This document shows positions 4,276-30,619 of a DNA stretch of 64,000 bases, piece after piece (the first letter of the stretch is position 1; each line of letters begins with the position of its first letter). A program made the translations under genes and the position numbers. Below the pieces are notes generated by a model, which saw only the letters and a program-made list of their open reading frames with translations, did no database searches and was not told the DNA's origin. This stretch comes from Acholoe squamosa (Eukaryota; Annelida; Polychaeta; Phyllodocida; Polynoidae), in contig OX439052.1 in NCBI GenBank assembly GCA_949317995.1, forward strand, positions 36,519,932 through 36,583,931, written 5' to 3'.

Positions 4276-5439
4276 ATAGGGTTCAGGATTAAAGTAAAGG
4301 GTCTCCCTAGTCTCTGTGAGTGATTTTTAGGTGTCAACGAGTGGTTGTTAGCCTACCAATAAGTGACATGAGTACTTGTGAGTCATTTTTAGGGTCAAAA
4401 TAGAGTTCAGAATTAAAATAAAGGGTCTCCCTAGTCTCTGCCACTGATTTTTAGGTGTCAACGAGTGGCTGTTAGCCTACCAAAAGGTGACACGAGTACT
4501 TGCGAGTAATTTTAGTGTCAAAATGGGGTTCAGAATTAAAGTAAAGGGTCTCCCTAGTCTCTGTGAGTGTTTTTTAGGTGTCAACAAGTGGTTGTTAGCC
4601 TACCAATAGGTGACACAAGTACTTGTGAGTCATTTTTAGGGTCAAAATAGGGTTCAGAATTAAAGTAAAGGGTCTCCCTAGTCTCTGTGAGTGTTTTTTA
4701 GGTGTCAACAAGTGGTTGTTAGCCTACCAATAGGTGACACAAGTACTTGTGAGTCATTTTTAGGGTCAAAATAGGGTTCAGAATTAAAGTAAAGGGTCTC
4801 CCTAGTCTCTGTGAGTGTTTTTTAGGTGTCAACAAGTGGTTGTTAGCCTACCAATAGGTGACACAAGTACTTGTGAGTCATTTTTAGGGTCAAAATAGGG
4901 TTCAGAATTAAAGTAAAGGGTCTCCCTAGTCTCTGTGAGTGTTTTTTAGGTGTCAACAAGTGGTTGTTAGCCTACCAATAGGTGACACGAGTACTTGTGA
5001 GTCATTTTTTAGGGTCAAAATAGTATTTAGAATTAAAGTAAAGGGTCTCCCTAATCTCTGCCAGTGTTTTTTAGGTGTGAACGAGTGGTTGTTAGCCTCC
5101 CAATAGGTGACACAAATACTTGTGAGTCATTTTTAGGGTCAAAATAGGGTTCAGAATTCAAGTAGGGGGTCTCCCTAGTCTCTGTGAGTGATTTGCAGGT
5201 GTGAACGAGTGGTTGTTAGCCTCCAAATAGGTAACACAAGTACTTGTGAGTCATTTTTAGGGTCAAAATAGGGTTCAGAATTAAAGTGTAGGGGCCAGCT
5301 CTGGCTGTAAGTCCATGGCGGTAGGCCATCTGCCCCGTTCCGGTTGCACCAGCCTTCAGGGGCTGGTCAGCTGGTATAAGCTGCCCCCCTTGTGTATTAT
5401 ACCGATCCAGATGTAGGTGGAAGGTAGAGAATGTCAGAC

Positions 5440-5511
5440 GGGGAAGTAGCTCAGCGGTAGAGCTTCCGCCTGCAGGTTGGAGGGTCCCGGGTTGGACTCC
5501 CGGTTTCTCCA
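5440..5511 (+). tRNA. tRNA-Cys(GCA)-like gene in 5' terminal repeat, copy 1 (C56G variant)
   Basis: The 72-nt sequence folds as a full cloverleaf: 7-bp acceptor stem (two G-T pairs), GCTC/GAGC D stem, a 5-bp anticodon stem with one mismatch at the loop end, loop CTGCAGG with anticodon GCA (Cys), 5-nt variable loop, and perfect 5-bp T stem. The A box TAGCTCAGCGG is good. The B box reads GGTTGGACTCC, so the invariant C56 of the T loop is G. That should weaken Pol III binding and the tertiary fold. A TTTT run follows 6 nt after the discriminator base. Confidence 0.75.
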
Positions 5512-5537
5512 AGACGTTTTCCGCCGACCTCTACACG

Positions 5538-5550
5538 GGTGGAGAAACCG
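5538..5550 (+). promoter_or_regulatory. Primer-binding-site-like sequence complementary to the embedded tRNA
   Basis: GGTGGAGAAACCG lies 2 nt after the 5' terminal repeat. It is complementary to the last 11 nt of the embedded tRNA-like gene (CGGTTTCTCCA) plus two bases of an added CCA tail. This is the position and polarity of a retrotransposon minus-strand primer site. The same sequence occurs at the same offset in the other two islands. Confidence 0.65.
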
Positions 5551-6179
5551 AGTTGGTCCTGACACGTGTGAGGGGGGACTACGAGAACTCGGTACCTGGG
5601 CTGGTATGACATGAATGACGATTCAATTTGCTAGTAGTGGGGAGACTTGAAAGAGGTGGCCGGTATGCGACTCAGTACTAGTCCCGGGTATCTGGTACCT
5701 ATTGGGTACTGAACCCTATATTGAATCTGGTAGGGAGGAGTGTAGGGGCCAGCTCTGCCGTAAGGCCAGCAGCCCCGTTTCTGGAGATCCCAGCCCCCAG
5801 GGGCTGGCATCCGGTGGTAGCTCCCCCCTACGTGTGTGTCATACCAATCCAGGTGTAGGTGCCTGGAACGGTATAATACAGATACGCTTCGACCCTGGCA
5901 GTACTGTGTACTGGTAGGTCAACTGGGAAGTCAGGAGTGCCTCATACTGCTTGATAAAGCCCAATCGATCTGGTTGGGAGGAATGCTTGGTGCTGGTTGG
6001 CCATGGTTGAAGCTGGTTGGGAGGAGTGTAGGGGCCAGCTCTGGCTGTAAGTCCATGGCGGTAGGCCATCGGCCCCGTTCCGGTTGCACCAGCCTTCAAG
6101 GGCTGGTCAGCTGGTATAAGCTGCCCCCCTTGTGTATTATACCGATCCAGATGTAGGTGGAAGGTAGAGAATGTCAGAC

Positions 6180-6251
6180 GGGGAAGTAGCTCAGCGGTAG
6201 AGCTTCCGCCTGCAGGTTGGAGGGTCCCGGGTTCGACTCCCGGTTTCTCCA
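6180..6251 (+). tRNA. tRNA-Cys(GCA)-like gene in 3' terminal repeat, copy 1 (intact boxes)
   Basis: Same 72-nt cloverleaf as the copy at 5440, but with the consensus T loop TTCGACT, so both the A box (TAGCTCAGCGG) and the B box (GGTTCGACTCC) are intact. The discriminator is A, and a TTTT run 6 nt downstream can act as a Pol III terminator. The anticodon loop CTGCAGG has G at position 37, where animal tRNA-Cys usually has A. It could be a functional tRNA, a tRNA-like RNA or a pseudogene. Confidence 0.75.
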
Positions 6252-9200
6252 AGACGTTTTCCGCCGACCTCTACAAAAGCAAGGGGTCTCCCTAATCTCT
6301 GCGAGTGTTTTTTAGGTGTGAATGAGTGGTTGTTAGCTTCTCAATAGGTGACACGAGTACTTGTGAGTCATTTTTAGGGTCAAAATAGGGTTCAGAATTA
6401 AAGTAAAGGGTCTCCCTAGTCTCTGCAAGTGATATTTAGGTGTCAATGAGTAGTTGTTAGCCTACCAAGTGGTAATACTAGTAATTAAAAGTAGTTTTTA
6501 GGTGTCAACGAGTGGATGTTAGCCTTCCAATAGGTGACACAAGTACTTGTGAGTCATTTTTAGGGTCAAAATAATGTTTAGAATTAAAGTCAAGGGTCTC
6601 CCTAATCTCTGCCAGTGTTTTTTAGGTGTGAACGAGTGGTTTTTAGCCTACCAATAGGTGACACGAGTACTTGCGAGTCATTTTTAGGGTCAAAATAGAG
6701 TTCAGAATTAAAATAAAGGGTCTCCCTAGTCTCTGCCAGTGATTTTTAGGTGTCAACGAGTGGTTGTTAGCCTACCAAAAGGTGACACGAGTACTTGCGA
6801 GTAATTTAAGGGTGTCAAAATGGGGTTCAGAATTAAAGTAAAGGGTCTCCCTCGTCTCTGTGAGTGTTTTTAGGTGTCAACAAGTGGTTGTTAGCCTACC
6901 AATAGGTGACACGAGTACTTGTGAGTCATTTTTTAGGGTCAAAATAGTATTTAGAATTAAAGTAAAGGGTCTCCCTAATCTCTGCCAGTGTTTTTTAGGT
7001 GTGAACGAGTGGTTGTTAGCCTACCAAAAGGTGACACGAGTACTTGCGAGTAATTTTAGTGTCAAAATGGGGTTCAGAATTAAAGTAAAGGGTCTCCCTC
7101 GTCTCTGTGAGTGTTTTTTAGGTGTCAACAAGTGGTTGTTAGCCTACCAATAGGTGACACGAGTACTTGGGAGTCATTTTTTAGGGTCAAAATAGTATTT
7201 AGAATTAAAGTAAAGGGTCTCCCTAATCTCTGCCAGTGTTTTTTAGGTGTGAACGAGTGGTTGTTAGCCTACCAAAAGGTGACACGAGTACTTGCGAGTA
7301 ATTTTAGTGTCAAAATGGGGTTCAGAATTAAAGTAAAGGGTCTCCCTAGTCTCTGCGAGTTATTTTTAGGTGTCAACGAGTGGTTGTTAGCCTACCAAAA
7401 GGTGACACGAGTACTTGCGAGTAATTTTAGTGTCAAAATGGGGTTCAGAATTAAAGTAAAGGGTCTCCCTAGTCTCTGTGAGTGTTTTTTAGGTGTCAAC
7501 GAGTGGTTGTTTGCCTACCAATAGGTGACACGAGTACTTGTGAGTCATTTTTTAGGGTCAAAATAGTATTTAGAATTAAAGTAAAGGGTCTCCCTAATCT
7601 CTGCCAGTGTTTTTTAGGTGTGAACGAGTGGTTGTTAGCCTCCCAATAGGTGACACGAATACTTGTGAGTCATTTTTAGTGTCAAAATGGGGTTCAGAAT
7701 TAAAGTAAAGGGTCTCCCTAGTCTCTGCAAGTGATTTTTAGGTGTCAACGAGTGGTTGTTAGCCTACCAAAAGGTGACACGAGTACTTGCGAGTCATTTT
7801 TAGGGTCAAAATAGGGTTCAGAATTAAAATAAAGGGTCTCCCTAGTCTCTGCCAGTGATTTTTAGGTGTCAACGAGTGGTTGTTAGCCTACCAATAAGTG
7901 ACATGAGTACTTGTGAGTCATTTTTAGGGTCAAAATAGAGTTCAGAATTAAAATAAAGGGTTTCCCTAGTCTCTGCCAGTGATTTTTAGGTGTCAACGAG
8001 TGGTTGTTAGCCTACCAAAAGGTGACATGAGTACTTGCGAGTAATTTTAGTGTCAAAATGGGGTTCAGAATTAAAGTAAAGGGTCTCCCTAGTCTCTGTG
8101 AGTGTTTTTTAGGTGTCAACAAGTGGTTGTTAGCCTACCAATAGGTGACACAAGTACTTGTGAGTCATTTTTAGGGTCAAAATAGGGTTCAGAATTAAAG
8201 TAAAGGGTCTCCCTAGTCTCTGTGAGTGTTTTTTAGGTGTCAACAAGTGGTTGTTAGCCTACCAATAGGTGACACAAGTACTTGTGAGTCATTTTTAGGG
8301 TCAAAATAGGGTTCAGAATTAAAGTAAAGGGTCTCCCTAGTCTCTGTGAGTGTTTTTTAGGTGTCAACAAGTGGTTGTTAGCCTACCAATAGGTGACACG
8401 AGTACTTGTGAGTCATTTTTTAGGGTCTAAATAGTATTTAGAATTAAAGTAAAGGGTCTCCCTAATCTCTGTGAGTGTTTTTAGGTGTCAACAAGTGGTT
8501 GTTAGCCTACCAATAGGTGACACGAGTACTTGTGAGTCATTTTTTAGGGTCAAAATAGTATTTAGAATTAAAGTAAAGGGTCTCCCTAATCTCTGCCAGT
8601 GTTTTTTAGGTGTGAACGAGTGGTTGTTAGCCTACCAAAAGGTGACACGAGTACTTGCGAGTAATTTTAGTGTCAAAATGGGGTTCAGAATTAAAGTAAA
8701 GGGTCTCCCTCGTCTCTGTGAGTGTTTTTTAGGTGTCAACAAGTGGTTGTTAGCCTACCAATAGGTGACACGAGTACTTGGGAGTCATTTTTTAGGGTCA
8801 AAATAGTATTTAGAATTAAAGTAAAGGGTCTCCCTAATCTCTGCCAGTGTTTTTTAGGTGTGAACGAGTGGTTGTTAGCCTACCAAAAGGTGACACGAGT
8901 ACTTGCGAGTAATTTTAGTGTCAAAATGGGGTTCAGAATTAAAGTAAAGGGTCTCCCTAGTCTCTGCGAGTTATTTTTAGGTGTCAACGAGTGGTTGTTA
9001 GCCTACCAAAAGGTGACACGAGTACTTGCGAGTAATTTTAGTGTCAAAATGGGGTTCAGAATTAAAGTAAAGGGTCTCCCTAGTCTCTGTGAGTGTTTTT
9101 TAGGTGTCAACAAGTGGTTGTTAGCCTACCAATAGGTGACACGAGTACTTGTGAGTCATTTTTTAGGGTCAAAATAGTATTTAGAATTAAAGTAAAGGGT

Positions 9201-11204
9201 CTCCCTAATCTCTGTGAGTGTTTTTAGGTGTCAACAAGTGGTTGTTAGCCTACCAATAGGTGACACGAGTACTTGTGAGTCATTTTTTAGGGTCAAAATA
9301 GTATTTAGAATTAAAGTAAAGGGTCTCCCTAATCTCTGCCAGTGTTTTTTAGGTGTGAACGAGTGGTTGTTAGCCTACCAAAAGGTGACACGAGTACTTG
9401 CGAGTAATTTTAGTGTCAAAATGGGGTTCAGAATTAAAGTAAAGGGTCTCCCTCGTCTCTGTGAGTGTTTTTTAGGTGTCAACAAGTGGTTGTTAGCCTA
9501 CCAATAGGTGACACGAGTACTTGGGAGTCATTTTTTAGGGTCAAAATAGTATTTAGAATTAAAGTAAAGGGTCTCCCTAATCTCTGCCAGTGTTTTTTAG
9601 GTGTGAACGAGTGGTTGTTAGCCTACCAAAAGGTGACACGAGTACTTGCGAGTAATTTTAGTGTCAAAATGGGGTTCAGAATTAAAGTAAAGGGTCTCCC
9701 TAGTCTCTGCGAGTTATTTTTAGGTGTCAACGAGTGGTTGTTAGCCTACCAAAAGGTGACACGAGTACTTGCGAGTAATTTTAGTGTCAAAATGGGGTTC
9801 AGAATTAAAGTAAAGGGTCTCCCTAGTCTCTGTGAGTGTTTTTTAGGTGTCAACGAGTGGTTGTTTGCCTACCAATAGGTGACACGAGTACTTGTGAGTC
9901 ATTTTTTAGGGTCAAAATAGTATTTAGAATTAAAGTAAAGGGTCTCCCTAATCTCTGCCAGTGTTTTTTAGGTGTGAACGAGTGGTTGTTAGCCTCCCAA
10001 TAGGTGACACGAATACTTGTGAGTCATTTTTAGTGTCAAAATGGGGTTCAGAATTAAAGTAAAGGGTCTCCCTAGTCTCTGCAAGTGATTTTTAGGTGTC
10101 AACGAGTGGTTGTTAGCCTACCAAAAGGTGACACGAGTACTTGCGAGTCATTTTTAGGGTCAAAATAGGGTTCAGAATTAAAATAAAGGGTCTCCCTAGT
10201 CTCTGCCAGTGATTTTTAGGTGTCAACGAGTGGTTGTTAGCCTACCAATAAGTGACATGAGTACTTGTGAGTCATTTTTAGGGTCAAAATAGAGTTCAGA
10301 ATTAAAATAAAGGGTTTCCCTAGTCTCTGCCAGTGATTTTTAGGTGTCAACGAGTGGTTGTTAGCCTACCAAAAGGTGACATGAGTACTTGCGAGTAATT
10401 TTAGTGTCAAAATGGGGTTCAGAATTAAAGTAAAGGGTCTCCCTAGTCTCTGTGAGTGTTTTTTAGGTGTCAACAAGTGGTTGTTAGCCTACCAATAGGT
10501 GACACAAGTACTTGTGAGTCATTTTTAGGGTCAAAATAGGGTTCAGAATTAAAGTAAAGGGTCTCCCTAGTCTCTGTGAGTGTTTTTTAGGTGTCAACAA
10601 GTGGTTGTTAGCCTACCAATAGGTGACACAAGTACTTGTGAGTCATTTTTAGGGTCAAAATAGGGTTCAGAATTAAAGTAAAGGGTCTCCCTAGTCTCTG
10701 TGAGTGTTTTTTAGGTGTCAACAAGTGGTTGTTAGCCTACCAATAGGTGACACGAGTACTTGTGAGTCATTTTTTAGGGTCAAAATAGTATTTAGAATTA
10801 AAGTAAAGGGTCTCCCTAATCTCTGCCAGTGTTTTTTAGGTGTGAAGGAGTGGTTGTTAGCCTCCCAATAGGTGACACAAATACTTGTGAGTCATTTTTA
10901 GGGTCAAAATAGGGTTCAGAATTCAAGTAGGGGGTCTCCCTAGTCTCTGTGAGTGATTTGCAGGTGTGAACGAGTGGTTGTTAGCCTCCAAATAGGTAAC
11001 ACAAGTACTTGTGAGTCATTTTTAGGGTCAAAATAGGGTTCAGAATTAAAGTGTAGGGGCCAGCTCTGGCTGTAAGTCCATGGCGGTAGGCCATCTGCCC
11101 CGTTCCGGTTGCACCAGCCTTCAGGGGCTGGTCAGCTGGTATAAGCTGCCCCCCTTGTGTATTATACCGATCCAGATGTAGGTGGAAGGTAGAGAATGTC
11201 AGAC

Positions 11205-11276
11205 GGGGAAGTAGCTCAGCGGTAGAGCTTCCGCCTGCAGGTTGGAGGGTCCCGGGTTGGACTCCCGGTTTCTCCA
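11205..11276 (+). tRNA. tRNA-Cys(GCA)-like gene, copy 2 5' repeat (C56G variant)
   Basis: Same cloverleaf and GCA anticodon as the other copies. The T loop reads TTGGACT, the same C56G change as in the 5' repeat of copy 1. Confidence 0.7.
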
Positions 11277-11302
11277 AGACGTTTTCCGCCGACCTCTACA
11301 CG

Positions 11303-11315
11303 GGTGGAGAAACCG
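11303..11315 (+). promoter_or_regulatory. Primer-binding-site-like sequence, copy 2
   Basis: GGTGGAGAAACCG, 2 nt after the 5' repeat, complementary to the 3' end of the embedded tRNA-like gene as in copy 1. Confidence 0.6.
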
Positions 11316-11944
11316 AGTTGGTCCTGACACGTGTGAGGGGGGACTACGAGAACTCGGTACCTGGGCTGGTATGACATGAATGACGATTCAATTTGCTAGT
11401 AGTGGGGAGACTTGAAAGAGGTGGCCGGTATGCGACTCAGTACTAGTCCCGGGTATCTGGTACCTATTGGGTACTGAACCCTATATTGAATCTGGTAGGG
11501 AGGAGTGTAGGGGCCAGCTCTGCCGTAAGGCCAGCAGCCCCGTTTCTGGAGATCCCAGCCCCCAGGGGCTGGCATCCGGTGGTAGCTCCCCCCTACGTGT
11601 GTGTCATACCAATCCAGGTGTAGGTGCCTGGAACGGTATAATACAGATACGCTTCGACCCTGGCAGTACTGTGTACTGGTAGGTCAACTGGGAAGTCAGG
11701 AGTGCCTCATACTGCTTGATAAAGCCCAATCGATCTGGTTGGGAGGAATGCTTGGTGCTGGTTGGCCATGGTTGAAGCTGGTTGGGAGGAGTGTAGGGGC
11801 CAGCTCTGGCTGTAAGTCCATGGCGGTAGGCCATCGGCCCCGTTCCGGTTGCACCAGCCTTCAAGGGCTGGTCAGCTGGTATAAGCTGCCCCCCTTGTGT
11901 ATTATACCGATCCAGATGTAGGTGGAAGGTAGAGAATGTCAGAT

Positions 11945-12016
11945 GGGGAAGTAGCTCAGCGGTAGAGCTTCCGCCTGCAGGTTGGAGGGTCCCGGGTTCG
12001 ACTCCCGGTTTCTCCA
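11945..12016 (+). tRNA. tRNA-Cys(GCA)-like gene, copy 2 3' repeat (intact boxes)
   Basis: Same cloverleaf with consensus TTCGACT T loop and intact A and B boxes. The 5' flank has a single change (CAGATG instead of CAGACG) outside the tRNA body. Confidence 0.75.
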
Positions 12017-14118
12017 AGACGTTTTCCGCCGACCTCTACAAAAGCAAGGGGTCTCCCTAATCTCTGCGAGTGTTTTTTAGGTGTGAATGAGTGGTTGTTA
12101 GCTTCTCAATAGGTGACACGAGTACTTGTGAGTCATTTTTAGGGTCAAAATAGGGTTCAGAATTAAAGTAAAGGGTCTCCCTAGTCTCTGCAAGTGATAT
12201 TTAGGTGTCAATGAGTAGTTGTTAGCCTACCAAGTGGTAATACTAGTAATTAAAAGTAGTTTTTAGGTGTCAACGAGTGGATGTTAGCCTTCCAATAGGT
12301 GACACAAGTACTTGTGAGTCATTTTTAGGGTCAAAATAATGTTTAGAATTAAAGTAAAGGGTCTCCCTAATCTCTGCCAGTGTTTTTTAGGTGTGAACGA
12401 GTGGTTTTTAGCCTACCAATAGGTGACACGAGTACTTGCGAGTCATTTTTAGGGTCAAAATAGAGTTCAGAATTAAAATAAAGGGTCTCCCTAGTCTCTG
12501 CCAGTGATTTTTAGGTGTCAACAAGTGGTTGTTAGCCTACCAAAAGGTGACACGAGTACTTGCGAGTAATTTTAGTGTCAAAATGGGGTTCAGAATTAAA
12601 GTAAAGGGTCTCCCTCGTCTCTGTGAGTGTTTTTTAGGTGTCAACAAGTGGTTGTTAGCCTACCAATAGGTGACACGAGTACTTGTGAGTCATTTTTTAG
12701 GGTCAAAATAGTATTTAGAATTAAAGTAAAGGGTCTCCCTAATCTCTGCCAGTGTTTTTTAGGTGTGAACGAGTGGTTGTTAGCCTACCAAAAGGTGACA
12801 CGAGTACTTGCGAGTAATTTTAGTGTCAAAATGGGGTTCAGAATTAAAGTAAAGGGTCTCCCTAGTCTCTGCGAGTTATTTTTAGGTGTCAACGAGTGGT
12901 TGTTAGCCTACCAAAAGGTGACACGAGTACTTGCGAGTAATTTTAGTGTCAAAATGGGGTTCAGAATTAAAGTAAAGGGTCTCCCTAGTCTCTGTGAGTG
13001 TTTTTTAGGTGTCAACGAGTGGTTGTTTGCCTACTAATAGGTGACACGAGTACTTGTGAGTCATTTTTTAGGGTCAAAATAGTATTTAGAATTAAAGTAA
13101 AGGGTCTCCCTAATCTCTGCCAGTGTTTTTTAGGTGTGAACGAGTGGTTGTTAGCCTCCCAATAGGTGACACGAATACTTGTGAGTCATTTTTAGTGTCA
13201 AAATGGGGTTCAGAATTAAAGTAAAGGGTCTCCCTAGTCTCTGCAGGTGATTTTTAGGTGTCAACGAGTGGTTGTTAGCCTACCAAAAGGTGACACGAGT
13301 ACTTGCGAGTCATTTTTAGGGTCAAAATAGGGTTCAGAATTAAAATAAAGGGTCTCCCTAGTCTCTGCCAGTGATTTTTAGGTGTCAACGAGTGGTTGTT
13401 AGCCTACCAATAAGTGACATGAGTACTTGTGAGTCATTTTTAGGGTCAAAATAGAGTTCAGAATTAAAATAAAGGGTTTCCCTAGTCTCTGCCAGTGATT
13501 TTTAGGTGTCAACGAGTGGTTGTTAGCCTACCAAAAGGTGACATGAGTACTTGCGAGTAATTTTAGTGTCAAAATGGGGTTCAGAATTAAAGTAAAGGGT
13601 CTCCCTAGTCTCTGTGAGTGTTTTTTAGGTGTCAACAAGTGGTTGTTAGCCTACCAATAGGTGACACGAGTACTTGTGAGTCATTTTTTAGGGTCAAAAT
13701 AGTATTTAGAATTAAAGTAAAGGGTCTCCCTAATCTCTGCCAGTGTTTTTTAGGTGTGAAGGAGTGGTTGTTAGCCTCCCAATAGGTGACACAAATACTT
13801 GTGAGTCATTTTTAGGGTCAAAATAGGGTTCAGAATTCAAGTAGGGGGTCTCCCTAGTCTCTGTGAGTGATTTGCAGGTGTGAACGAGTGGTTGTTAGCC
13901 TCCAAATAGGTAACACAAGTACTTGTGAGTCATTTTTAGGGTCAAAATAGGGTTCAGAATTAAAGTGTAGGGGCCAGCTCTGGCTGTAAGTCCATGGCGG
14001 TAGGCCATCTGCCCCGTTCCGGTTGCACCAGCCTTCAGGGGCTGGTCAGCTGGTATAAGCTGCCCCCCTTGTGTATTATACCGATCCAGATGTAGGTGGA
14101 AGGTAGAGAATGTCAGAC

Positions 14119-14190
14119 GGGGAAGTAGCTCAGTGGTAGAGCTTCCGCCTGCAGGTTGGAGGGTCCCGGGTTGGACTCCCGGTTTCTCCA
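14119..14190 (+). tRNA. tRNA-Cys(GCA)-like gene, copy 3 5' repeat (C56G variant)
   Basis: Same cloverleaf and GCA anticodon. The D loop has AGTGGTA instead of AGCGGTA, which still fits the A box. The T loop is TTGGACT (C56G). Confidence 0.7.
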
Positions 14191-14216
14191 AGACGTTTTC
14201 CGCCGACCTCTACACG

Positions 14217-14229
14217 GGTGGAGAAACCG
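14217..14229 (+). promoter_or_regulatory. Primer-binding-site-like sequence, copy 3
   Basis: GGTGGAGAAACCG at the same offset as in copies 1 and 2, complementary to the 3' end of the embedded tRNA-like gene. Confidence 0.6.
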
Positions 14230-14858
14230 AGTTGGTCCTGACACGTGTGAGGGGGGACTACGAGAACTCGGTACCTGGGCTGGTATGACATGAATGACGA
14301 TTCAATTTGCTAGTAGTGGGGAGACTTGAAAGAGGTGGCTGGTATGCGACTCAGTACTAGTCCCGGGTATCTGGTACCTATAGGGTACTGAACCCTATAT
14401 TGAATCTGGTAGGGAGGAGTGTAGGGGCCAGCTCTGCCGTAAGGCCAGCAGCCCCGTTTCTGGAGATCCCAGCCCCCAGGGGCTGGCATCCGGTGGTAGC
14501 TCCCCCCTACATGTGTGTCATACCAATCCAGGTGTAGGTGCCTGGAACGGTATAATACAGATACGCTTCGACCCTGGCAGTACTGTGTACTGGTAGGTCA
14601 ACTGGGAAGTCAGGAGTGCCTCATACTGCTTGATAAAGCCCAATCGATCTGGTTGGGAGGAATGCTTGGTGCTGGTTGGCCATGGTTGAAGCTGGTTGGG
14701 AGGAGTGTAGGGGCCAGCTCTGGCTGTAAGTCCATGGCGGTAGGCCATCGGCCCCGTTCCGGTTGCACCAGCCTTCAGGGGCTGGTCAGCTGGTATAAGC
14801 TGCCCCCCTTGTGTATTATACCGATCCAGATGTAGGTGGAAGGTAGAGAATGTCAGAC

Positions 14859-14930
14859 GGGGAAGTAGCTCAGCGGTAGAGCTTCCGCCTGCAGGTTGGA
14901 GGGTCCCGGGTTGGACTCCCGGTTTCTCCA
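14859..14930 (+). tRNA. tRNA-Cys(GCA)-like gene, copy 3 3' repeat (C56G variant)
   Basis: Same cloverleaf, but unlike the 3' repeats of copies 1 and 2 it carries TTGGACT. This suggests conversion between the two terminal repeats of this copy. Confidence 0.7.
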
Positions 14931-17480
14931 AGACGTTTTCCGCCGACCTCTACAAAAGCAAGGGGTCTCCCTAATCTCTGCGAGTGTTTTTTAGGTGTGA
15001 ATGAGTGGTTGTTAGCTTCTCAATAGGTGACACGAGTACTTGTGAGTCATTTTTAGGGTCAAAATAGGGTTCAGAATTAAAGTAAAGGGTCTCCCTAGTC
15101 TCTGCAAGTGATATTTAGGTGTCAATGAGTAGTTGTTAGCCTACCAAGTGGTAATACTAGTAATTAAAAGTAGTTTTTAGGTGTCAACGAGTGGATGTTA
15201 GCCTTCCAATAGGTGACACAAGTACTTGTGAGTCATTTTTAGGGTCAAAATAATGTTTAGAATTAAAGTAAAGGGTCTCCCTAATCTCTGCCAGTGTTTT
15301 TTAGGTGTGAACGAGTGGTTTTTAGCCTACCAATAGGTGACACGAGTACTTGCGAGTCATTTTTAGGGTCAAAATAGAGTTCAGAATTAAAATAAAGGGT
15401 CTCCCTAGTCTCTGCCAGTGATTTTTAGGTGTCAACGAGTGGTTGTTAGCCTACCAAAAGGTGACACGAGTACTTGCGAGTAATTTTAGTGTCAAAATGG
15501 GGTTCAGAATTAAAGTAAAGGGTCTCCCTCGGCTCTGTGAGTGTTTTTTAGGTGTCAACAAGTGGTTGTTAGCCTACCAATAGGTGACACGAGTACTTGT
15601 GAGTCATTTTTTAGGGTCAAAATAGTATTTAGAATTAAAGTAAAGGGTCTCCCTAATGTCTGCCAGTGTTTTTTTAGGTGTGAACGAGTGGTTGTTAGCC
15701 TACCAAAAGGTGACACGAGTACTTGCGAGTAATTTTAGTGTCAAAATGGGGATCAGAATTAAAGTAAAGGGTCTCCCTCGTCTCTGTGAGTGTTTTTTAG
15801 GTGTCAACAAGTGGTTGTTAGCCTACCAATAGGTGACACGAGTACTTGGGAGTCATTTTTTAGGGTCAAAATAGTATTTAGAATTAAAGTAAAGGGTCTC
15901 CCTAATCTCTGCCAGTGTTTTTTAGGTGTGAACGAGTGGTTGTTAGCCTACCAAAAGGTGACACGAGTACTTGCGAGTAATTTTAGTGTCAAAATGGGGT
16001 TCAGAATTAAAGTAAAGGGTTTCCCTAGTCTCTGCGAGTTATTTTTAGGTGTCAACGAGTGGTTGTTAGCCTACCAAAAGGTGACACGAGTACTTGCGAG
16101 TAATTTTAGTGTCAAAATGGGGTTCAGAATTAAAGTAAAGGGTCTCCCTAGTCTCTGTGAGTGTTTTTTAGGTGTCAACAAGTGGTTGTTTGCCTACCAA
16201 TAGGTGACACGAGTACTTGTGAGTCATTTTTTAGGGTCAAAATAGTATTTAGAATTAAAGTAAAGGGTCTCCCTAATCTCTGCCAGTGTTTTTTAGGTGT
16301 GAACGAGTGGTTGTTAGCCTCCCAATAGGTGACACGAATACTTGTGAGTCATTTTTAGGGTCAAAATAGGGTTCAGAATTAAAGTAAAGGGTCTCCCTAG
16401 TCTCTGCAAGTGATTTTTAGGTGTGAACGAGTGGTTGTTAGCCTACCAAAAGGTGACACGAGTACTTGCGAGTCATTTTTAGGGTCAAAATAGGGTTCAG
16501 AATTAAAATAAAGGGTCTCCCTAGTCTCTGCCAGTGATTTTTAGGTGTCAACGAGTGGTTGTTAGCCTACCAAAAGGTGACACGAGTACTTGCGAGTAAT
16601 TTTAGTGTCAAAATGGGGTTCAGAATTAAAGTAAAGGGTTTCCCTAGTCTCTGCGAGTTATTTTTAGGTGTCAACGAGTGGTTGTTAGCCTACCAAAAGG
16701 TGACACGAGTACTTGCGAGTAATTTTAGTGTCAAAATGGGGTTCAGAATTAAAGTAAAGGGTCTCCCTAGTCTCTGTGAGTGTTTTTTAGGTGTCAACAA
16801 GTGGTTGTTTGCCTACCAATAGGTGACACGAGTACTTGTGAGTCATTTTTTAGGGTCAAAATAGGGTTCAGAATTAAAGTAAAGGGTCTCCCTAGTCTCT
16901 GCGAGTGATTTTTAGGTGTGAACGAGTGGTTGTTAGCCTCCCAATAGGTGACACGAATACTTGTGAGTCATTTTTAGGGTCAAAATAGGGTTCAGAATTA
17001 AAGTTAGTCTCTGCAAGTGATTTTTAGGTGTGAACGAGTGGTTGTTAGCCTACCAAAAGGTGACACGAGTACTTGCGAGTCATTTTTAGGGTCAAAATAG
17101 GGTTCAGAATTAAAATAAAGGGTCTCCCTAGTCTCTGCCAGTGATTTTTAGGTGTCAACGAGTGGTTGTTAGCCTACCAAAAGGTGACACGAGTACTTGC
17201 GAGTAATTTTAGTGTCAAAATGGGGTTCAGAATTAAAGTAAAGGGTCTCCCTAGTCTCTGTGAGTGTTTTTTAGGTGTCAACGAGTGGTTGTTAGCCTAC
17301 CAATAGGTGACATGAGTACTTGTGAGTCATTTTTAGGGTCAAAATAGACTTCAGAATTAAAGTAAAGGGTCTCCCTAGTCTCTGGGACTGATTTTTAAGT
17401 GTGAACGAGTGGTTGTTAGCCTCCCAATAGGTGACACTAGTACTTGCGAGTCATTTTTAGGGTCAAAATAGGGTTCAGAC

Positions 17481-19245
17481 ACCTAGCTATAACATGACAG
17501 GCCCTGACTGACATCTAAAAATGACTCACAGACCCTTGTTACACCTCTCTTTAGCCTCACAGACCCTTGCTGACACCTAAAAATGACTCGCAGACACTTG
17601 GCCCACCTCACTTTAGCCTAACAGACCCTCACTGACACCTAAAAATGACTAGCAGACACTTGGCCCACCTCACTTTCACCTAACAGACCCTCGCTGACAC
17701 CCAAAAATGACTCACAGACACTTGGTACACCTCTTTAGCCTCACAGACCCTCACTGCCATCTAAAAATGACTCGCAGACACTTGGCCCACCTCACTTTCG
17801 CCTAACAGACCCTCACTGACACCTAAAAATGACTCACAGACACTTGGTACACCTCTTTAGCCTCACAGACCCTCACTGACATCTTAAAATGACTCGCAGA
17901 CACTTGGCCCACCTCACTTTTGCATAACAGACACTCACTGACATCTAAAAATGACTCGCAGACACTTGACCCACCTCACTATCGCCTAACAGACCCTCGC
18001 TGACACCTAAAATTGACTCTCAGACACTTGGAACACCTCGCTAGAACATGACCGACCCTCACTGACATCTAAAAATGACTCGCAGACACTTGGTACACCT
18101 TTCTTTAGCCTCAAAGACCCTCACTGACACCTAAAAATGACTTGCAAACACTTGGCCCACCTCACTTTAATAGCCTAACAGACCCTCACTGACACCTAAA
18201 ACTGACTCGCAGACACTTGATCCACCTCTCTTTAGCCTCAAAGACCCTCAGTGACAGCTAGAAATGACTCAGACACTTGGCCCACCTCACTTTCGCCTCA
18301 CAGACCCTCGCTGACACCTAAAATTGACTCGCAGACACTTGGTACACCTTTCTTTAGCCTTACAGACCCTCACTGACACCTAAAAATGACTCACATACAC
18401 TCGGTACACCTCTCTTTGGCCTAACAGACCCTCGCTGACACCTAAAAATGACTCACAGACACTTGGCCCACCTCACTTTCGCCTGACAGACCCTCGCTGA
18501 CACCTAAAATTGACTCGCAGACACTTGGTACACCTCGCTATAACATGACAGACCCTCACTGACACCTAAATATGACTGGCAGACACTTGGTACACCTCTC
18601 TTTAGCCTCACAGACCCTTGCTGACACCTAAAAATGACTCGCAAACACTTGGTTCACCTTTCTTTAGCCTTACAGACCCTCACTGACACCTAAAAATGAC
18701 TCGCATACACTCGGTACACCTCTCTTTGGCCTAACAGACCCTCGCTGACACCTAAAAATGACTCACAGACACTTGGCCCACCTCACTTTCGCCTGACAGA
18801 CCCTCGCTGACACCTAAAATTGACTCGCAGACACTTGGTACACCTCGCTATAACATGACAGACCCTCACTGACACCTAAATATGACTGGCAGACACTTGG
18901 TACACCTATCTTTAGCCTCACAGACCCTTGCTGACACCTAAAAATGACTCACAGACACTTGGCCCACCTCACTTTAGCCTAACAGACCCTCACTGACACC
19001 TAAAAATGACCCGCAGACACTTGGTACACCTCTCTTTAGCCTCACAGACCCTTGCTGACACCTAAAAATGACTCGCAAACACTTGGTTCACCTCTCTTTA
19101 GCCTCACAGACCCTCACTGACACCTAAAAATGACTCAGACACTTGGCCCACCTCACTTTCGCCTAAAAGACCCTCACTGACACCTAAAAATGACTTGCAG
19201 ACACTTGGCACTTTGGCACTCACAGTAGCCTAACAGACCGTTGCT
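17481..19245 (-). repeat. Satellite array B, 62-bp monomer, inverted relative of array A
   Basis: About 28 units of 62 bp containing CTGACACCTAAAAATGACTC and ACACTTGG(C/T). Its reverse complement aligns over the full 62 bp with one half of the array A monomer (TTTTTAGGTGTCA...GTTAGCC...CTTGCGAG). The array orientation therefore flips at about 17480. Units differ by several substitutions and there is no coding capacity. Confidence 0.9.
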
Positions 19246-20060
19246 GATACCTAAAACTGGAACTCTGAATTTTAGAGGTGAAAATATTTTGAGCCTGAAA
19301 ATTACTGCTATGCACTATGCACTATTCACTCTAATACTTCCACACGCCCCCCCCCACTAAAAAAAAAAGAGGTTTATCATCATTCACATTGTGCCCCCCA
19401 CCCCCACCCCCATCTTAATGTCAACTGATTTAGCTATACAAAAGTATGGGTTTTTATATACCTAAGCCTGCTCAACATGACCACTGCTGTGGGTGACTGG
19501 AGGTTAAGGAGGGTGACTGGGGGTTATGAACTGACCAATCAGACAGCTCCCCCCCCCCACACCACCCACCCTTCCGGCCCCCACGGAAGGCGTAGGCCAT
19601 ACGCATCTCTCTCGTACCGTTGAGGTCTCAGACCACCAAAACATTTCTCACTATAATCTATTATAGCTTAACCACCGATAAAACCCGCCTACAATGATTC
19701 AAATCGCCCAAAATAACCACAAATCTTTAGATACATCTTTTATCCTTAATCTGAGATAAAAAAAACATAGGTTTGACCAATCCAGTTTTTTTCTATTGGC
19801 CTGCATGCATACCTACCTACATTTTGACCTATTCTGCACCTAATAATTCAACAGTGCTCACTAATTTTTTAATGCCACCCACCAGTGCCTAACCAAAGGG
19901 CCAGTGTGTCACAATTTATATTCTATGAATCAGTACAGTTTAGTGATTTATTTGATGCCTTATAGCAAAGCTGACAATAATTTCCACACACTAATATAGA
20001 CCAATCAGAGGCCATCATCTCTTAACTGCCTACATTTACTGTATGATGAGGGGGGAACTG
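19246..20060. other. Intergenic, no gene seen
   Basis: Unique-looking AT-rich DNA with poly-C and poly-A runs near 19345-19375 and 19395. I see no ORF of note, RNA gene or clear element ends. Confidence 0.5.
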
Positions 20061-21439
20061 ACTCGTATAACGGGTCGTCAACTCCGCCGTCAACTCCCAG
20101 TTGATGTTCGTGTATATATGTATAAAATAGTGTTGTATATGTATTAAATTGGTTCAATTATATGTGAATTTGACTTAAAGTCATATTCTACACTTTCTAC
20201 TCCTCCCTAGCCCACCTAAAAAAGTATTATTTAGTAAAATACAAGTGCTATTGGGATACCCGTTACAACATGTGAGGTGGGATGCATTTTTTGCACTGTT
20301 CAAGACAAGGGAGCATTCATTTTTCAGAGGTTCACAAAATCAGTTCTGAATGAGTGGGGATGGTGGACTTTGGGAATGGTGCAGGAGTGGCAGTTCTTTA
20401 ACATGGGGGGAGAGGGCTGGGGGGGGAGGGGGTTTAGACTTTCTAGGATAAAAAAATTTCAGACCCGGAGTGATAATTTTTTAACAACAGGTGGGGGGCT
20501 GGTGGGTTTGAGGGGGGTAAGAATTTTTTCAACCCCTTGCCCAGGGGGGCAGAATTTTTTCCACCCCTCTAATGAGGGGGTCAAAATAATTTCACCTGTC
20601 TTCAGAGAGGGGGGGGCAATTTTTTTCCCCGCGTCTGCGCATAAACCCACCAGCCCCGCCCGTGTTTTTATAAAAAAAATGATCACTCCCTTAGGGGGAG
20701 CAAAGAATTTCACCCCTTTTTTAAGCGAAAAAGCCCAGGCCCTACTATTAAAGGGAGTGGTCATTATTTATCAACGGGGGGAGGGTGGTGGTGGGTTTGA
20801 GGGGGGAGTTCGTAAAATATTCAGACCACTCCGAGGAGGGGGGTAAAAAATTTTGACCCTTCTTGAGGCGGGGGGACAGGGGTTGTAAAAATTTTACCCT
20901 CTTTTTAGCAAAAAGCCTGAACTCTACTATAGATCAAAGAGGGGCGCGGGGGTGCGCAAATTGTTTTTACTGCTGTTGAGAGGGGGTGCGTAAAAAATGT
21001 TCTGGCATCCGCACAAAAACCCACCACCCCCGCTGTTGATGAATAAAGACCACTCCCTAAAGAATAAAAGGGGGGGAGTGGAAAAGACTCCAAACCCCTC
21101 TATGTTGCCATGTGGGGATAGGGTGTTTACCCCTTTCACTTCAGTCTGGCTGGGGGGAGGGGTGGATGAGGGAGCATCTGTTAGGCTATTCATTTGGTAC
21201 AAATGACATCATGCAGGGGTAGCGGGAGGGGGGTTAGGCCCGGCATGATGGGATTAATTTTCCATATACCTTCAGCATTGCAATATTGGCAAAAAACATG
21301 ATGGGGGGGTATCAAAAATGGTCGAAAAAAGCATAACATCATTTGTACACACCTCAATTGCAGAGGTGGTGGATAGGAATAGGGGGCCTATATTTCAGGG
21401 GTAGGCAATTTTTTTTTTTTATTGGGAGGGAAATGGGGA

Positions 21440-22330
21440 TTTCATGTGAGTTGATGTCCTTCATACAAAGCTGTCAGCTCCAGGTTCTATAGAGGGGGTA
21501 AAGACCCTGGAGTTGATGTCCTGCATACGGAGCTATCAGCTCCAGGTTAGAGGGCTTAGTACGAGCTTAGTACTGAGGCCTAGTGCATCCGCCATTGCTA
21601 TATCTGGGAGCTGGCAAGATAAGGACTGATAAGAACCAGCATGGTGGGTACTGGGTGTTAAATAATGTACCCAAATAATTCTGCAGTGGCTGGAGGGAGG
21701 CATCTCATTAGTTGATATTGTATCCCGGGTCAGCCCTATAGAGGTGGTATAGACCATGGGAGTTGATGTTCTGTATACAGAGATGTCACCTCCAGGTTCT
21801 GTAATAGTGCTATAGACCATGGGAGGTGATGTCCTGCATACAGAGCTATCAGCTCCAGGTTCTATAGAGGATGTAAAGACCATGGGATGTGATGTCCTGT
21901 ATAGAGAGCTATCAGCTCCAGGTTCTGTAGAGGGGGTATAGACCATGGGAGGTGATGTCCTGTATACAGAGATGTCACCTCCAGGTTCTATAGAGCTGCT
22001 ATAGACCATGGGAGGTGATGTCCTGTATAGAGAGCTATCAGCTCCAGGTTCTATAGTGGTGATAAAGACCATGGGAGGTGATGTCCTGTATAGAGAGCTA
22101 TCAGCTCCATGTTCTATAGTGGTGATAAAGACCATGGGAGGTGATGTCCTGTATAGAGAGCTATCAGCTCCAGGTTCTATATAGGGGGTATAGACCCTGG
22201 AGTTGATATCCTGCATACAGAGCTTTCAGCTCCAGGTTCGATAGAGGTGGTAAAGACCATGGGGGTTGATATCCTGTATATATTGGTGTCAGCTCCATCA
22301 CCCCTGACGGTGATGGTGGATAAACCATGG
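21440..22330 (-). repeat. 63-bp tandem repeats in the left arm
   Basis: About 13 units of ~63 bp, each with GACCATGGGAGGTGATGTCC and AGCTCCAGGTTCTATAG. Because 63 is a multiple of three, the minus strand stays open for 226 codons (21536-22216) as 21-residue repeats around YRTSPPMVY. There is no start context, domain or splice evidence for a real protein. Confidence 0.8.
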
Positions 22331-23609
22331 GAGCTGATGTTGGTTTTCAGCTCCTGGTCCTAATCTGATGGTGAAGGACTCTATAGCAGGCCATCAGCTC
22401 CAAGTCAATGCGATATACCATATTTCCCCGCGGACAAGCATTAAGTTGTAAATTGGTCGGGCGTAAACACGCAGCAGGCTATTTCATGAAAAAAGCAGCC
22501 TCCCACTTTGCATTATTCCTCACATAAATCTACCAATTATGTTTCAATATCCCATCTTTTACCTACAGATTACAGTCTGATTTATTTTCAAAGTAGTTTT
22601 TACACGGGGCCCCATCAATACATGGAGAAATATGGTATTCACTATGGGAGTTGATGACCTGTATGGTGGGGTGTCAGCTCCTGTACCATCAAATGATATA
22701 GGTAGTATCTGGAGCTGATGACCTATTAAACAGGTCATTAGCTTCAGTGCTATCTAACACCCTGTTATTACCTATAGCTGACAGCCTAGCATACAGACCA
22801 TGAACTCCAGTAACATCACCTACCATAGTAACACCTGGAGTTGGTGCCTTACTATAGTGGTCATCACTTACAAGTTCCAGTGCTACATAGCAATAAAAGT
22901 ACATGGGGACGATGCCCTACTATAGAGGCCTTCACCACCAGTACTCTACACCTGAGTAGGACCCGAAGCTGACACCCCACCATACAGGTCATCAACTCCC
23001 ATAGTAAACACCATATTTCTCCATGACATGGCCAGGCCCCGTGTAATAGCCAATAAATGTTACGTTTTAGGCCATAACTCCACTTATATGTAAGGTAGTT
23101 AGACAATTTCTTCACGGTAAAATTTGTACTCATGTCCCATCTATTAAAACTACTTTGAAAATAAATCAGACTGTAAGCTGTAGGTAAAAGATGGGATATT
23201 GAAACATAATTGGTAGATTTATGCTAGGAATAATGCAAAGTGGGAGGCTCCTCTTTCATGTAATAGCCTGCTCCATATATAAGCCTGACCAATTTACCAC
23301 TTAATGCTTGTATAAGCCTTGGCTTATACATGGGGAAATATGATATATCGCCTTGACTTGGAGCTGATGGCCTGCTATAGAGGCCTTCACCATCAGATTA
23401 GGACCATGGTTTATCCACCATCACTGCCAGGGGTGACGGAATAGGGGGCTTAGGGTGGCCATGCCCCCAATCTCAGACTAAGGGGGCCAGACTTTATTTT
23501 GCACCCCCCAAATTATGAAACCAATATACACTGTTATGGTGAACTTGGTCATTTGCTCCCCACCTGACCCGTGTCGGCTCCCCTGAAGTCACATTGCTTC
23601 CGACACCCC

Positions 23610-24460
23610 TGACTGTGCCTGGAGCTGACACCACTCTATACAGGACATCACCTCCCATGGTCTATAGCACTATTACAGAACCTGGAGGTGACATCTCTGT
23701 GTACAGGACATCACCTCCCATAGTCTACTCTATACCCCCTCTACAGAACCTGGAGCTGATAGCTCTCTATACAGGACATCACATCCCATGGTCTTTACCA
23801 CCTCTATAGAACCTGGAGCTGATAGCTCTGTATGCAGGACATCACCTCCCATGGTATATAGCACTATAACAGAACCTGGAGGTGACATCTCTGTATGCAG
23901 GACATCAACTCCAGGGTCTACACCCCCTATATAGAACCTGGAGCTGACAGCTCTGTATGCAGGACATCACCTCCCATGGTATATAGCACTATTACAGAAC
24001 CTGGAAGTGACATCTCTGTATACAGGCTTCAACTCCCATGGTCTATACCCCATATATAGAACCTGGAGCTGACAGCTCTGTATGCAGGACATCACCTCCC
24101 ATGGTCTATAGCACTATTACAGAACCTGGAGGTGACATCTCTGTATACAGGACATCAACTCCCATGGTCTATACCACCTCTATAGGGCTGACCCGGGATA
24201 CAATATCAGCTAATGAGATGCCTCCCTCCAGCCACTGCAGAATTATTTGGGTACATTATTTAACACCCAGTACCCACCATGCTGGTTCTTATCAGTCCTT
24301 ATCTTGCCAGCTCCCAGATATAGCAATGGCGGATGCACTATGCCTCAGTACTAAGCCCTCTAGAACCTGGAGCTGATAGCTCTGTATGCAGGACATCAAC
24401 TCCAGGGTCTTTACCCCCTCTATCGAACCTGGAGCTGACAGCTTTGTATAAAGGACATCA
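23610..24460 (+). repeat. 63-bp tandem repeats in the right arm
   Basis: Inverted counterpart of the left-arm array, on the plus strand. Here the reading frame is broken into pieces (23594-23809 and 24038-24376), which argues against a conserved protein. Confidence 0.8.
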
Positions 24461-25698
24461 ACTCACATGAAATCCCCATTTCCCTCCCAATAAAAAAAAA
24501 AATTGCCTACCCCGCTGAAATATAGGCCCCCTATTCCTATCCACCACCTCTGCAATTGAGGTGTGTACAAATGATGTTATGCATTTTTCGACCATTTTTG
24601 ATCCCCCCGTCATGTTTTTTGCCAATATTGCAATGCTGAAGGTATATGGAAAATTAATCCCATCATGCCGGGCCTAACCCCCCTCCCGCTACCCCTGCAT
24701 GATGTCATTTGTATCAAATGAATAGCCTAACAGATGCTCCCTCATCCACCCCTCCCCCCAGCCAGACTGAAGTGAAAGGGGTAAACACCCTATCCCCACT
24801 TGGCAACATAGAGGGGTTAGGAGTCTTTTCCACTCCCCCCCCCCATTTTATTCTTTAGGGAGTGGTCTTTATTCATCAACAGCGGGGGTGGTGGGTTTTT
24901 GTGCGGATGCCAGAACATTTTTTACGCACCCCCTCTCAACAGCAGTAAAAACAATTTGCGCACCCCTGCGCCCCTCTTTGATCTATAGAAGAGTTCAGGC
25001 TTTTTGTTAAAAAAAGGGTCAAATTTTTACACCCCCCCCCTCAAGAAGGGTCAAAATTTTTTACCCCCCTCCTCGGAGTGGTCTGAATATTTTACGAACT
25101 CCCCCCTCAAACCCACCACCACCCTCCCCCCGTTGATAAATAATGACCACTCCCTTTAATAGTAGGGCCTGGGCTTTTTCGCTTAAAAAAGGGGTGAAAT
25201 TCTTTGTTCCCCCTAAGGGAGTGATCATTTTTTTTTATAAAAACAGAGGGGGGGGGCTGGTGGGTTTATGCACAGACGCGGGGAAAAAAATTGACCCCCC
25301 CCCTCTGAAGACAATTAAAATTATTTTGACCCCCTCATTAGAGGGGTGGAAAAAATTCCGCCCCCTGGTCAAGGAGTTGAAAAAATTCTTACCCCCCCTC
25401 AAACCCACCAGCCCCCCCCACCTGTTGTTAAAAAATGATCACTCCAGGTTTGAATTTTTTTTTCCTAGAAAGTCTAAACCCCCTCCCCCCCCCCCCCATG
25501 TTAAAGAACTGCCACTCCTGCACCATTCCCAAAGTACACCATCCCTACAGTAGATAATATATGCTCCCTCACCTAGTGATGATGGAATTGCGCGCTGCAA
25601 GCAGCGCGCACCATATGTGCCTATTGAACACACCAATGTATAGCTACCTAGACACTGACTGGGAGTTGACGGCGGAGTTGATGCCCCGTTATACGATC

Positions 25699-25857
25699 CA
25701 GTCCATACCTCGAATGATCGTATGATCGTCGTCACTGCGGACCTCTATGGTGGTCCGAGATCTTGATGCCGGGGAACAGCTGAGTCCCTTTAAGTTCAGT
25801 AGGTGCTATAAACCCCTGTGACGGAACGGACTAGGGCTATTGAATCTACCCTGTAAC
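25699..25857 (+). promoter_or_regulatory. Short 5' region of the SLC35G-like gene
   Basis: Only about 160 bp separate the palindrome from the start codon. It holds a GC-richer stretch (TCGTCGTCACTGCGGACC) and GCTATAAACCCC at about 25805, a possible TATA-like element 53 bp before the ATG. It is unproven. Confidence 0.3.
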
Positions 25858-26853
25858 ATGGAGAAGTTCAGGAAACTTTACAATGAAAGGCAACTCTCAG
25901 GGTTTCTTTCAGGCCTTGGAGCAGGTTTCGCTGATGTCCTTAGTGCAGCCTGTGTGCAAAAGCTTGGTGATGCTGTGCCACCGTTCGAACTGAATGCTGC
26001 TCGATTCTTTACACAAATCATCATGTCCTTCTTTATGGTAGTCTGCACCAGGAAGACATTAAAAGTAGCACCAATTAAAGTGCACTGGGTGCTGGTCAGC
26101 ACCATCTTATGTGTTTTGGATAACACCTTTTACTTTACATCAGCCGAGTATCTACCTCTGGGAAACCTGACCATCATGCATGTGACTCTGCTTTACACAG
26201 GAACGCTACTCATGTCAAAACTACTATTGGACCGGGATATCCACTTGGTGCAGTGTGTGATATTTGTGGTGATACTGGTTGGACAATTCATGCTACTCCA
26301 GCCATTCAATATCATAAGCACAGGCAGTAATACCAGTGGAAGCTATGATGGAGCAAGGACTATCAAGCAGGATGGATCTGATAACACCATAGCTGGATAT
26401 ATGTTGGTGACTGGATCTTCAGTAACATGCGTTATTAAAGCCTTTGTGTACCGGTTCCATCTGAATGAAGTACCGACAAGCGTTCTTGTGTTCTGGGTGG
26501 GCGTGCTGGGGCTAGTAGTATCCCTCCTACTTATGGTGTACATGGAAAGTCCAGTTCTACTCACATCAGGACTGGCACTCCTTCTTCTAGCAGGACATGC
26601 TGTGTTTGCTTCTGCACATACCATTCTGGTGATTTATACACAACAAGAATTGAATCCAGTCATCTATGGCATCGTGATGAATAGTGAAGAAGTGTTTGGA
26701 TTTCTTCTGCAGTATTCACTTCCACAATTACTACTGCCAGGACATAGAAATTTACTGGAGGGTGTGGGAGCTGTTATCGTTATGTCTGGTATATTTGCTT
26801 ATGTCGTCACAGATTTCAAAATAAAAAAGGTCACATCATTAGAAAATATGTAG
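25858..26853 (+). CDS. SLC35G-like EamA-family membrane transporter, intronless
   Basis: A single open frame of 331 residues from the ATG at 25858. The frame extends 18 nt further upstream only through a TTG, so I chose the ATG. The product is very hydrophobic, with about nine or ten membrane segments in two halves of the EamA/DMT fold. Typical landmarks are a short N-terminal cytoplasmic stretch, GFADVLSAACVQKLG, ELNAARFFTQ and NTFYFTSAEYLPLGN, and a hydrophilic loop with N-glycosylation-like NTS near residue 160. This is the drug/metabolite transporter superfamily, closest in layout to SLC35G/TMEM20-like proteins. The substrate cannot be told from sequence. There are no introns, which may mean origin by retroposition. 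It starts 160 bp after the right arm of the palindrome. Confidence 0.8.
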   Translation: MEKFRKLYNERQLSGFLSGLGAGFADVLSAACVQKLGDAVPPFELNAARFFTQIIMSFFMVVCTRKTLKVAPIKVHWVLVSTILCVLDNTFYFTSAEYLPLGNLTIMHVTLLYTGTLLMSKLLLDRDIHLVQCVIFVVILVGQFMLLQPFNIISTGSNTSGSYDGARTIKQDGSDNTIAGYMLVTGSSVTCVIKAFVYRFHLNEVPTSVLVFWVGVLGLVVSLLLMVYMESPVLLTSGLALLLLAGHAVFASAHTILVIYTQQELNPVIYGIVMNSEEVFGFLLQYSLPQLLLPGHRNLLEGVGAVIVMSGIFAYVVTDFKIKKVTSLENM

Positions 26854-29890: not shown

Positions 29891-29925
29891 AAGAGAGATG
29901 CCTAACATGAAACCCTGCACCCCAG

Positions 29926-30616: not shown

Positions 30617-30619
30617 GAT

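Follow-up and report, generated by a model that had tools for sequence, protein, structure and literature searches.

Within a 64,000-nucleotide stretch of the genome of the polynoid annelid Acholoe squamosa (the window; C18:36519932-36583931, contig OX439052.1), positions 5287-6275 hold a 989-bp miniature long terminal repeat (LTR) retrotransposon that lies inside a 62/124-bp satellite. Each of its LTRs contains a tRNA gene, and the primer-binding site of intact copies is an exact complement of the CCA-tailed 3' end of that tRNA. We consider it likely that the element is a Helenus-type terminal-repeat retrotransposon in miniature (TRIM) that carries, in its LTR, the gene for the tRNA that primes its reverse transcription. 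The tRNA gene, its 14/14 complementarity to the primer site including TGG, the covariation of the two between families, dispersed insertions and inverted junctions, all of them observed in genomic sequence, point to this reading.

The element and its tRNA genes

The two LTRs (5287-5535 and 6027-6275), each of 249 bp, show 3 differences and enclose an internal part of 491 bp. The original prediction, made from the letters of the window, had described these direct terminal repeats, their TGTAG and CTACA tips, the AAAG duplication and the purine tract before the 3' LTR, and all of them are present. It had not included the primer-binding site (5537-5550), the TTTT that follows the tRNA or an internal LTR-like piece (5727-5861), and its statement that there is no open reading frame needs qualification: at a cut-off of 120 amino acids, a minus-strand frame of 137 amino acids with a TTG start spans 5839-6252. 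An intact copy (L009) measures 990 bp, and its sole TTTT runs are the two that follow the tRNA genes. The strings of the element family are TGGTGGAGAAACC for the primer site and GGTTGGGAGGAG for the purine tract.

ARAGORN identifies a 72-nucleotide tRNA-Cys(GCA) in both LTRs (5440-5511 and 6180-6251), and the Rfam tRNA model scores these at 47.8 and 52.3 bits, respectively, at a gathering score of 29; RF00005 is the only Rfam model to reach its gathering score in the window. The predicted tRNA-Cys(GCA)-like gene with A and B boxes was thereby recovered in each LTR, the boxes of the 5' LTR tRNA being assigned by their consensus. Bare minimum-energy folding gave no signal, the 3' LTR tRNA faring no better than its shuffles (z -0.53), so it is the covariance model and ARAGORN that support the cloverleaf. 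Across copies in the 1.48-Gb, 63-contig assembly to which our searches refer, the anticodons were Ser-CGA (91), Cys-GCA (73), Leu-CAA (8), Ser-TGA (8), Ser-GCT (3) and a few others, in a tally that counts overlapping loci more than once. While the anticodon varies (Ser, Cys, Leu), the match between acceptor end and primer site persists; as the anticodons differ among copies, decoding is not the conserved property.

Complementarity between the primer-binding site and the LTR tRNA

In intact copies the LTR ends in CTCTACA and is followed by C and then by TGGTGGAGAAACCG, so that the primer site begins one base past the LTR. The LTR tRNA ends in CGGTTTCTCCA, and the exact 14-nucleotide complement of this end plus CCA is TGGTGGAGAAACCG. 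The LTR itself continues from CTCCA into AGACG, that is, the partner of TGG is not encoded beside the tRNA. Since TGG has no templated CCA in the LTR, the natural partner of the site would be a CCA-tailed RNA.

The copies in the window have one point change, which makes the first base of the site G. They still share 13 nucleotides with the complement of the CCA-tailed tRNA, a length that none of 20,000 composition shuffles reached when the first 30 internal bases were randomised. The exact 14-nucleotide site was present at 42 of the 50 distinct two-LTR sites in the loci read, a count in which recognition demanded TGG at most 6 bases from the LTR end. These 50 sites come from loci picked either for being best matches or for forming pairs, and their recognition needs a TTTCTCCA-like tRNA end with a nearby TGG; rates among them are for these reasons not genome-wide. 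When sites in fetched loci were defined by a tRNA, an LTR end and NGG, both sequences were exact at 46 of 74, where the rows include 3' LTRs next to host DNA.

Covariation between families

The 3' end of the tRNA is family-specific, with ends that include GGTTTCTCCA, GCGAGACTA and GTGTTTCCA. A pattern that combined a non-T first acceptor base beside an LTR end with TGG found 47 places (control 1), of which 19 were fetched, first as four loci and then as 15 more 30-nucleotide stretches, and 28 were left unfetched. The primer sites of five families were predicted in writing before anything beyond TGG was read. Family X, with the tRNA end GCGAGACTA, has the site TAGTCTCGC (13/14 and 12/14 in two copies); family Y (GTGTTTCCA) has TGGAAACAC (13/14 once its tRNA end had been positioned by eye); and family W (ATCTGGTA) has CACCAGAT (12/14, with one mismatch at the discriminator). 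Agreement was weaker for families Z (12/14 in L105, 11/14 in L110) and V (11/14 in L106, 12/14 in L109), and the site of L106 is apparently nearer the tRNA of a sister copy than its own. Two further pairs came without prior prediction, namely family U (GGATGGGATA, site TATCCCATC), which was found later, and L117, a variant of family X in which both sides have changed (CACAAGACTA, site TAGTCTTGTG).

Over 20 copies, comprising the main family and all 19 places with the misses included, 157 of 220 positions beyond TGG matched; no shuffle among 100,000 reached this score (maximum 136), although the rows are not independent, five of the 20 being family X. TGG was left out of the score because the search pattern had demanded it. 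In a test of seven families, the true pairing was the sole one of 5040 to reach its score; these families were hand-picked, with family U (L119) and four misses omitted, both of which enter the 20-copy test.

A dispersed and mobile family

With the LTR as query, 2775 first-look candidates were obtained, and the 40 that were scored were all 99-100% identical over 249 bp and lay on ten contigs. Exact 4-bp duplications flank 35 of the 50 distinct two-LTR sites and use 30 different words, compared with 24 of 2450 mismatched flank pairs in the control; the list that includes overlapping loci gives 38 of 55. The two LTRs are identical at 19 of the 50 sites, a few of these in compound copies. Such duplications of many words, together with identical LTR pairs, indicate that the insertions are independent and that some are apparently recent. 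Independent insertion outside the satellite, for which the original prediction had called for a search, is therefore borne out, and an origin of the element within the satellite only was rejected. The three copies in the window are a single insertion that was multiplied along with the satellite, whose higher-order repeats occupy the window from 4139 and again at 17405-19251. An exact 20-nucleotide pattern for related copies had no match in viral contigs.

One short form (L022) runs from the internal LTR-like piece to the 3' LTR and is bounded on either side by CCTG, as though the internal purine tract had served as the start of plus-strand synthesis. Three other loci (L011, L021 and L023) also have ends at the internal piece and lack an exact duplication. 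Among other unusual copies, one lies within an unrelated tandem repeat with the duplication AATG (L082), and one on C4 (L026) is split in two by ~5 kb of other DNA, 6 bp of its internal region being duplicated. In L020, L023, L062 and L097, copies of related subfamilies are inverted or compound and meet in LTR or primer-site sequence.

Inverted junctions

A second tRNA-end pattern with a pyrimidine flank matched 57 places (control 0), and 27 of the 57 strings finish in CTCCACC. Thirty places were cut as loci and read, and in 16 of them the tRNA runs into CCA and from there into the complement of the LTR end, a proportion that is not a rate because the pattern selects such junctions. Displayed in reverse, 13 loci run from the LTR end through the primer site into the complement of tRNA sequence; ten of these continue into the complement of the LTR start, and eight of the ten then into that of the purine tract. 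These junctions show that the primer site has paired with the tRNA sequence of the element and been extended. At one locus (L077) the tRNA is copied only to about position 25, after which the sequence returns to internal sequence; this looks like a partly copied primer.

Weighing a cellular primer and other alternatives

Several observations weigh against a self-encoded primer. A 12-nucleotide inverted match between LTR positions 107-118 and internal positions 334-345 is longer than the 11 templated nucleotides of the tRNA/site match, and L013 and L087 have truncated sites but exact duplications. In the covariation set, the tRNA end of family Y (L102) was placed by eye one base earlier, and the automatic register gives 7/14; L111, which was kept in that register, matches at 6 of 11. 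Four loci mismatch outright (L107, L112, L114 and L115, with 2, 5, 5 and 2 of 11 beyond TGG), of which L115 looks like a chance match and L107 is perhaps a repeat beside host DNA. Three family X strings from a 13-place search match at 4, 4 and 3 of 5 variable positions; these, together with L104 and L118, show uncompensated differences and give the claim no support, differences that may fit old copies. The inverted junctions could also stem from template switching by plus-strand DNA, and not only from a CCA-tailed primer. No autonomous partner element came to light. The tRNA of family Z matches its site at 12/14, no better than human tRNA-Ala(TGC) does, and an alanine-tRNA pattern gave 203 places in the genome, located by pattern with their 3' ends unread, many of them in one C12 array.

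The last two points bear on the foremost alternative, namely that priming falls to an ordinary cellular tRNA whose 3' end is the same, the LTR tRNA being a captured relative that acts as a promoter only. The body of the main-family tRNA does resemble alanine tRNA, and human tRNA-Ala(TGC) fits the main site, like that of family Z, at 12/14. A search with the tRNA 3'-end pattern and a flank unlike that of the first subfamily, however, gave 647 places (reversed control 0), and all 20 loci read among them proved to be LTRs or LTR fragments of related subfamilies. Four loci with odd flanks (one of them L033 again) were likewise LTRs or LTR fragments. Also fetched were 19 pair-like regions among the first 100 of the 647 places and, for the pyrimidine-flank set, one C16 array. 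Element sequence was present in 29 of the 30 pyrimidine-flank loci read, the other (L076) being unrelated, and three more of the 57 places fall in LTRs of L100. By-eye comparison placed none of the 57 among the 100 listed of the 203 alanine places, a comparison sensitive only to genes whose B box reads GGTTC, with a pyrimidine two bases further on. In nine of ten chosen rows, with clear misses omitted, the element's own tRNA matched better than any of 27 human tRNA ends. Judged by the loci read, a cellular tRNA with the main-family 3' end is thus likely to be absent from the host, and we regard priming by such a tRNA as unlikely. A dense single-strand array of alanine-tRNA-like genes, spaced often ~290 or ~390 bp apart, was observed at C12:51451300-51477567.

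It is improbable that the tRNA is kept solely as an RNA polymerase III (Pol III) promoter for genomic RNA, as in a plain Helenus or TRIMp3 element, with incidental complementarity. The Pol III boxes and a terminator-like TTTT are present, a promoter role is the published reading of the Helenus class (PMC10886601), and it is compatible with priming as a second role. Such a role requires no match between acceptor end and primer site, whereas the complementarity observed takes in the untemplated CCA and covaries across families; moreover, TTTT lies 5 nucleotides past the tRNA, and transcripts might therefore mostly stop there. More doubtful still is that LTR tRNA and primer site pair into a hairpin of the genomic RNA that serves regulation or packaging: the 11 templated nucleotides are able to pair within one RNA, but TGG against an untemplated CCA, one base past the LTR end in the main family, is left unexplained. 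The reading in which a normal tRNA locus was multiplied by segmental or satellite duplication, which the common flanks of the three window copies might suggest and which the original prediction had itself raised, is scarcely credible given the many different 4-bp duplications at dispersed sites.

Proposed mechanism

For a self-encoded primer, we infer transcription, processing, CCA addition, priming and a helper element. Pol III would transcribe the LTR tRNA and halt at the adjoining TTTT, and the transcript would be trimmed and receive CCA. Its 3' end would pair with the 14-nucleotide site directly past the 5' LTR and be extended by the reverse transcriptase of an autonomous LTR element, and integration would yield the 4-bp duplications. 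The primer may be either a free tRNA or the genomic RNA itself, by way of its processed 3' end, and read-through to the second TTTT could also yield genomic RNA, as proposed for Cassandra-like elements.

Relation to known elements

In Ty3/Gypsy elements and retroviruses, a site just inside the 5' LTR is complementary to the 3' end of a tRNA, including CCA. There a cellular tRNA primes, whereas here the matching tRNA gene lies within the element. Tf1 self-primes with a piece of its own mRNA; the present element would share its independence of cellular tRNA primers but use a tRNA gene instead. Cassandra likewise has a small-RNA gene with a Pol III promoter in each LTR and no coding capacity, although its LTRs carry 5S rRNA and those described here a tRNA (RF00005). 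A self-encoded primer is not known for Cassandra. The original prediction of a Cassandra-like animal TRIM with a tRNA in each LTR holds as an analogy, but it saw the tRNA as a Pol III promoter only and missed the probable priming role. A tRNA-derived short interspersed element, which has no LTRs and uses target-primed reverse transcription, was ruled out by the 249-bp LTRs and 4-bp duplications. According to Kojima's report, Cassandra transcripts begin in the 5S of one LTR and extend to that of the other (PMC10886601).

Whether such an element had been described, which was left open at first, is answered by the same report, which in 2024 introduced Helenus as a class of TRIMs with tRNA-like sequence in their LTRs (PMC10886601). 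In that report, Helenus elements are TRIMs of ~1 kb or less that lack coding capacity, with an A/B-box tRNA-like sequence in the LTRs, a primer-binding site and a polypurine tract, 4-bp duplications in animals and several families per genome; in animals their mobilisation is ascribed to Gypsy elements. The present element agrees in its tRNA-derived LTR sequence, its LTRs, primer-binding site and purine tract, its size (989 bp for the window copy and 990 bp for L009), its lack of coding capacity, the 137-amino-acid minus-strand frame apart, and its duplications (exact at 35 of 50 sites), and by Kojima's definition it is a Helenus element. In contrast, the published account states that the tRNA-like sequence proved not to be complementary to the primer-binding site and has no part in initiation (PMC10886601), whereas here the 14/14 complement is present at 42 of 50 sites and covaries; the probable self-encoded primer is what is new. 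No report of an element with a self-encoded primer tRNA turned up in the portion of the literature surveyed, in which such work may have been missed and in which Kojima's negative statement was the only one on the subject.

Features of the window

Coordinates of the element are collected in Table 1. Elsewhere in the window, a large foldback-like inverted repeat, whose arms reach 98% complementarity, occupies 20493-25417, and an open frame of 337 amino acids with an EamA transporter domain and one 38% relative lies at 25840-26853. A minisatellite with a unit of ~15 bp is found at 29876-30640. A DIRS/Ngaro-like element lies at 55821-60684, where frames encode domains of a reverse transcriptase (RVT_1) and a tyrosine recombinase (Phage_integrase).

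Table 1. Features of the element and its copies in the window
Feature	Position	Strand	Basis
5' target-site duplication AAAG	5283..5286	.	sequence
5' LTR, 249 bp, TGTAG...CTACA	5287..5535	+	sequence, repeat comparison
tRNA gene of 5' LTR, anticodon GCA; B box GGTTG instead of GGTTC	5440..5511	+	ARAGORN, Rfam
A box TAGCTCAGCGG	5447..5457	+	sequence
B box GGTTGGACTCC	5490..5500	+	sequence
TTTT, Pol III terminator-like, 5 nt past tRNA end	5517..5520	+	sequence
Primer-binding site, GGGTGGAGAAACCG in window copy, TGGTGGAGAAACCG in intact copies	5537..5550	+	sequence
Internal purine tract	5727..5740	+	sequence
tRNA-less LTR-like piece, 70.6% identity to LTR positions 1-133	5741..5861	+	repeat comparison
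Purine tract CTGGTTGGGAGGAG preceding 3' LTR	6013..6026	+	sequence
3' LTR	6027..6275	+	sequence, repeat comparison
tRNA gene of 3' LTR, B box GGTTCGACTCC	6180..6251	+	ARAGORN, Rfam
TTTT past 3' LTR tRNA	6257..6260	+	sequence
3' target-site duplication AAAG	6276..6279	.	sequence
Second element copy, flanks identical, satellite duplicate	11052..12040	+	repeat comparison
Third element copy, flanks identical, satellite duplicate	13966..14954	+	repeat comparison

Significance

As a rule, LTR retroelements borrow a host tRNA. This dependence is said to expose them to fragments of mature tRNAs (PMC7472051). If the LTR tRNA is indeed the primer, an own primer gene would free the element from host-tRNA dependence, and the puzzling tRNA genes in Helenus LTRs would gain a function. 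We also think it fairly likely that these families form a retroelement clade with its own primer supply, in which acceptor end and site would have drifted jointly from cellular tRNAs, perhaps with a tRNA-ended genomic RNA as primer. Primer evolution would then be readable as the coevolution of a gene and its site within one element. Counts of tRNA genes would be affected as well, since hundreds of tRNA-like genes (647 places, with element sequence at all 20 that were read) would be parts of transposons.

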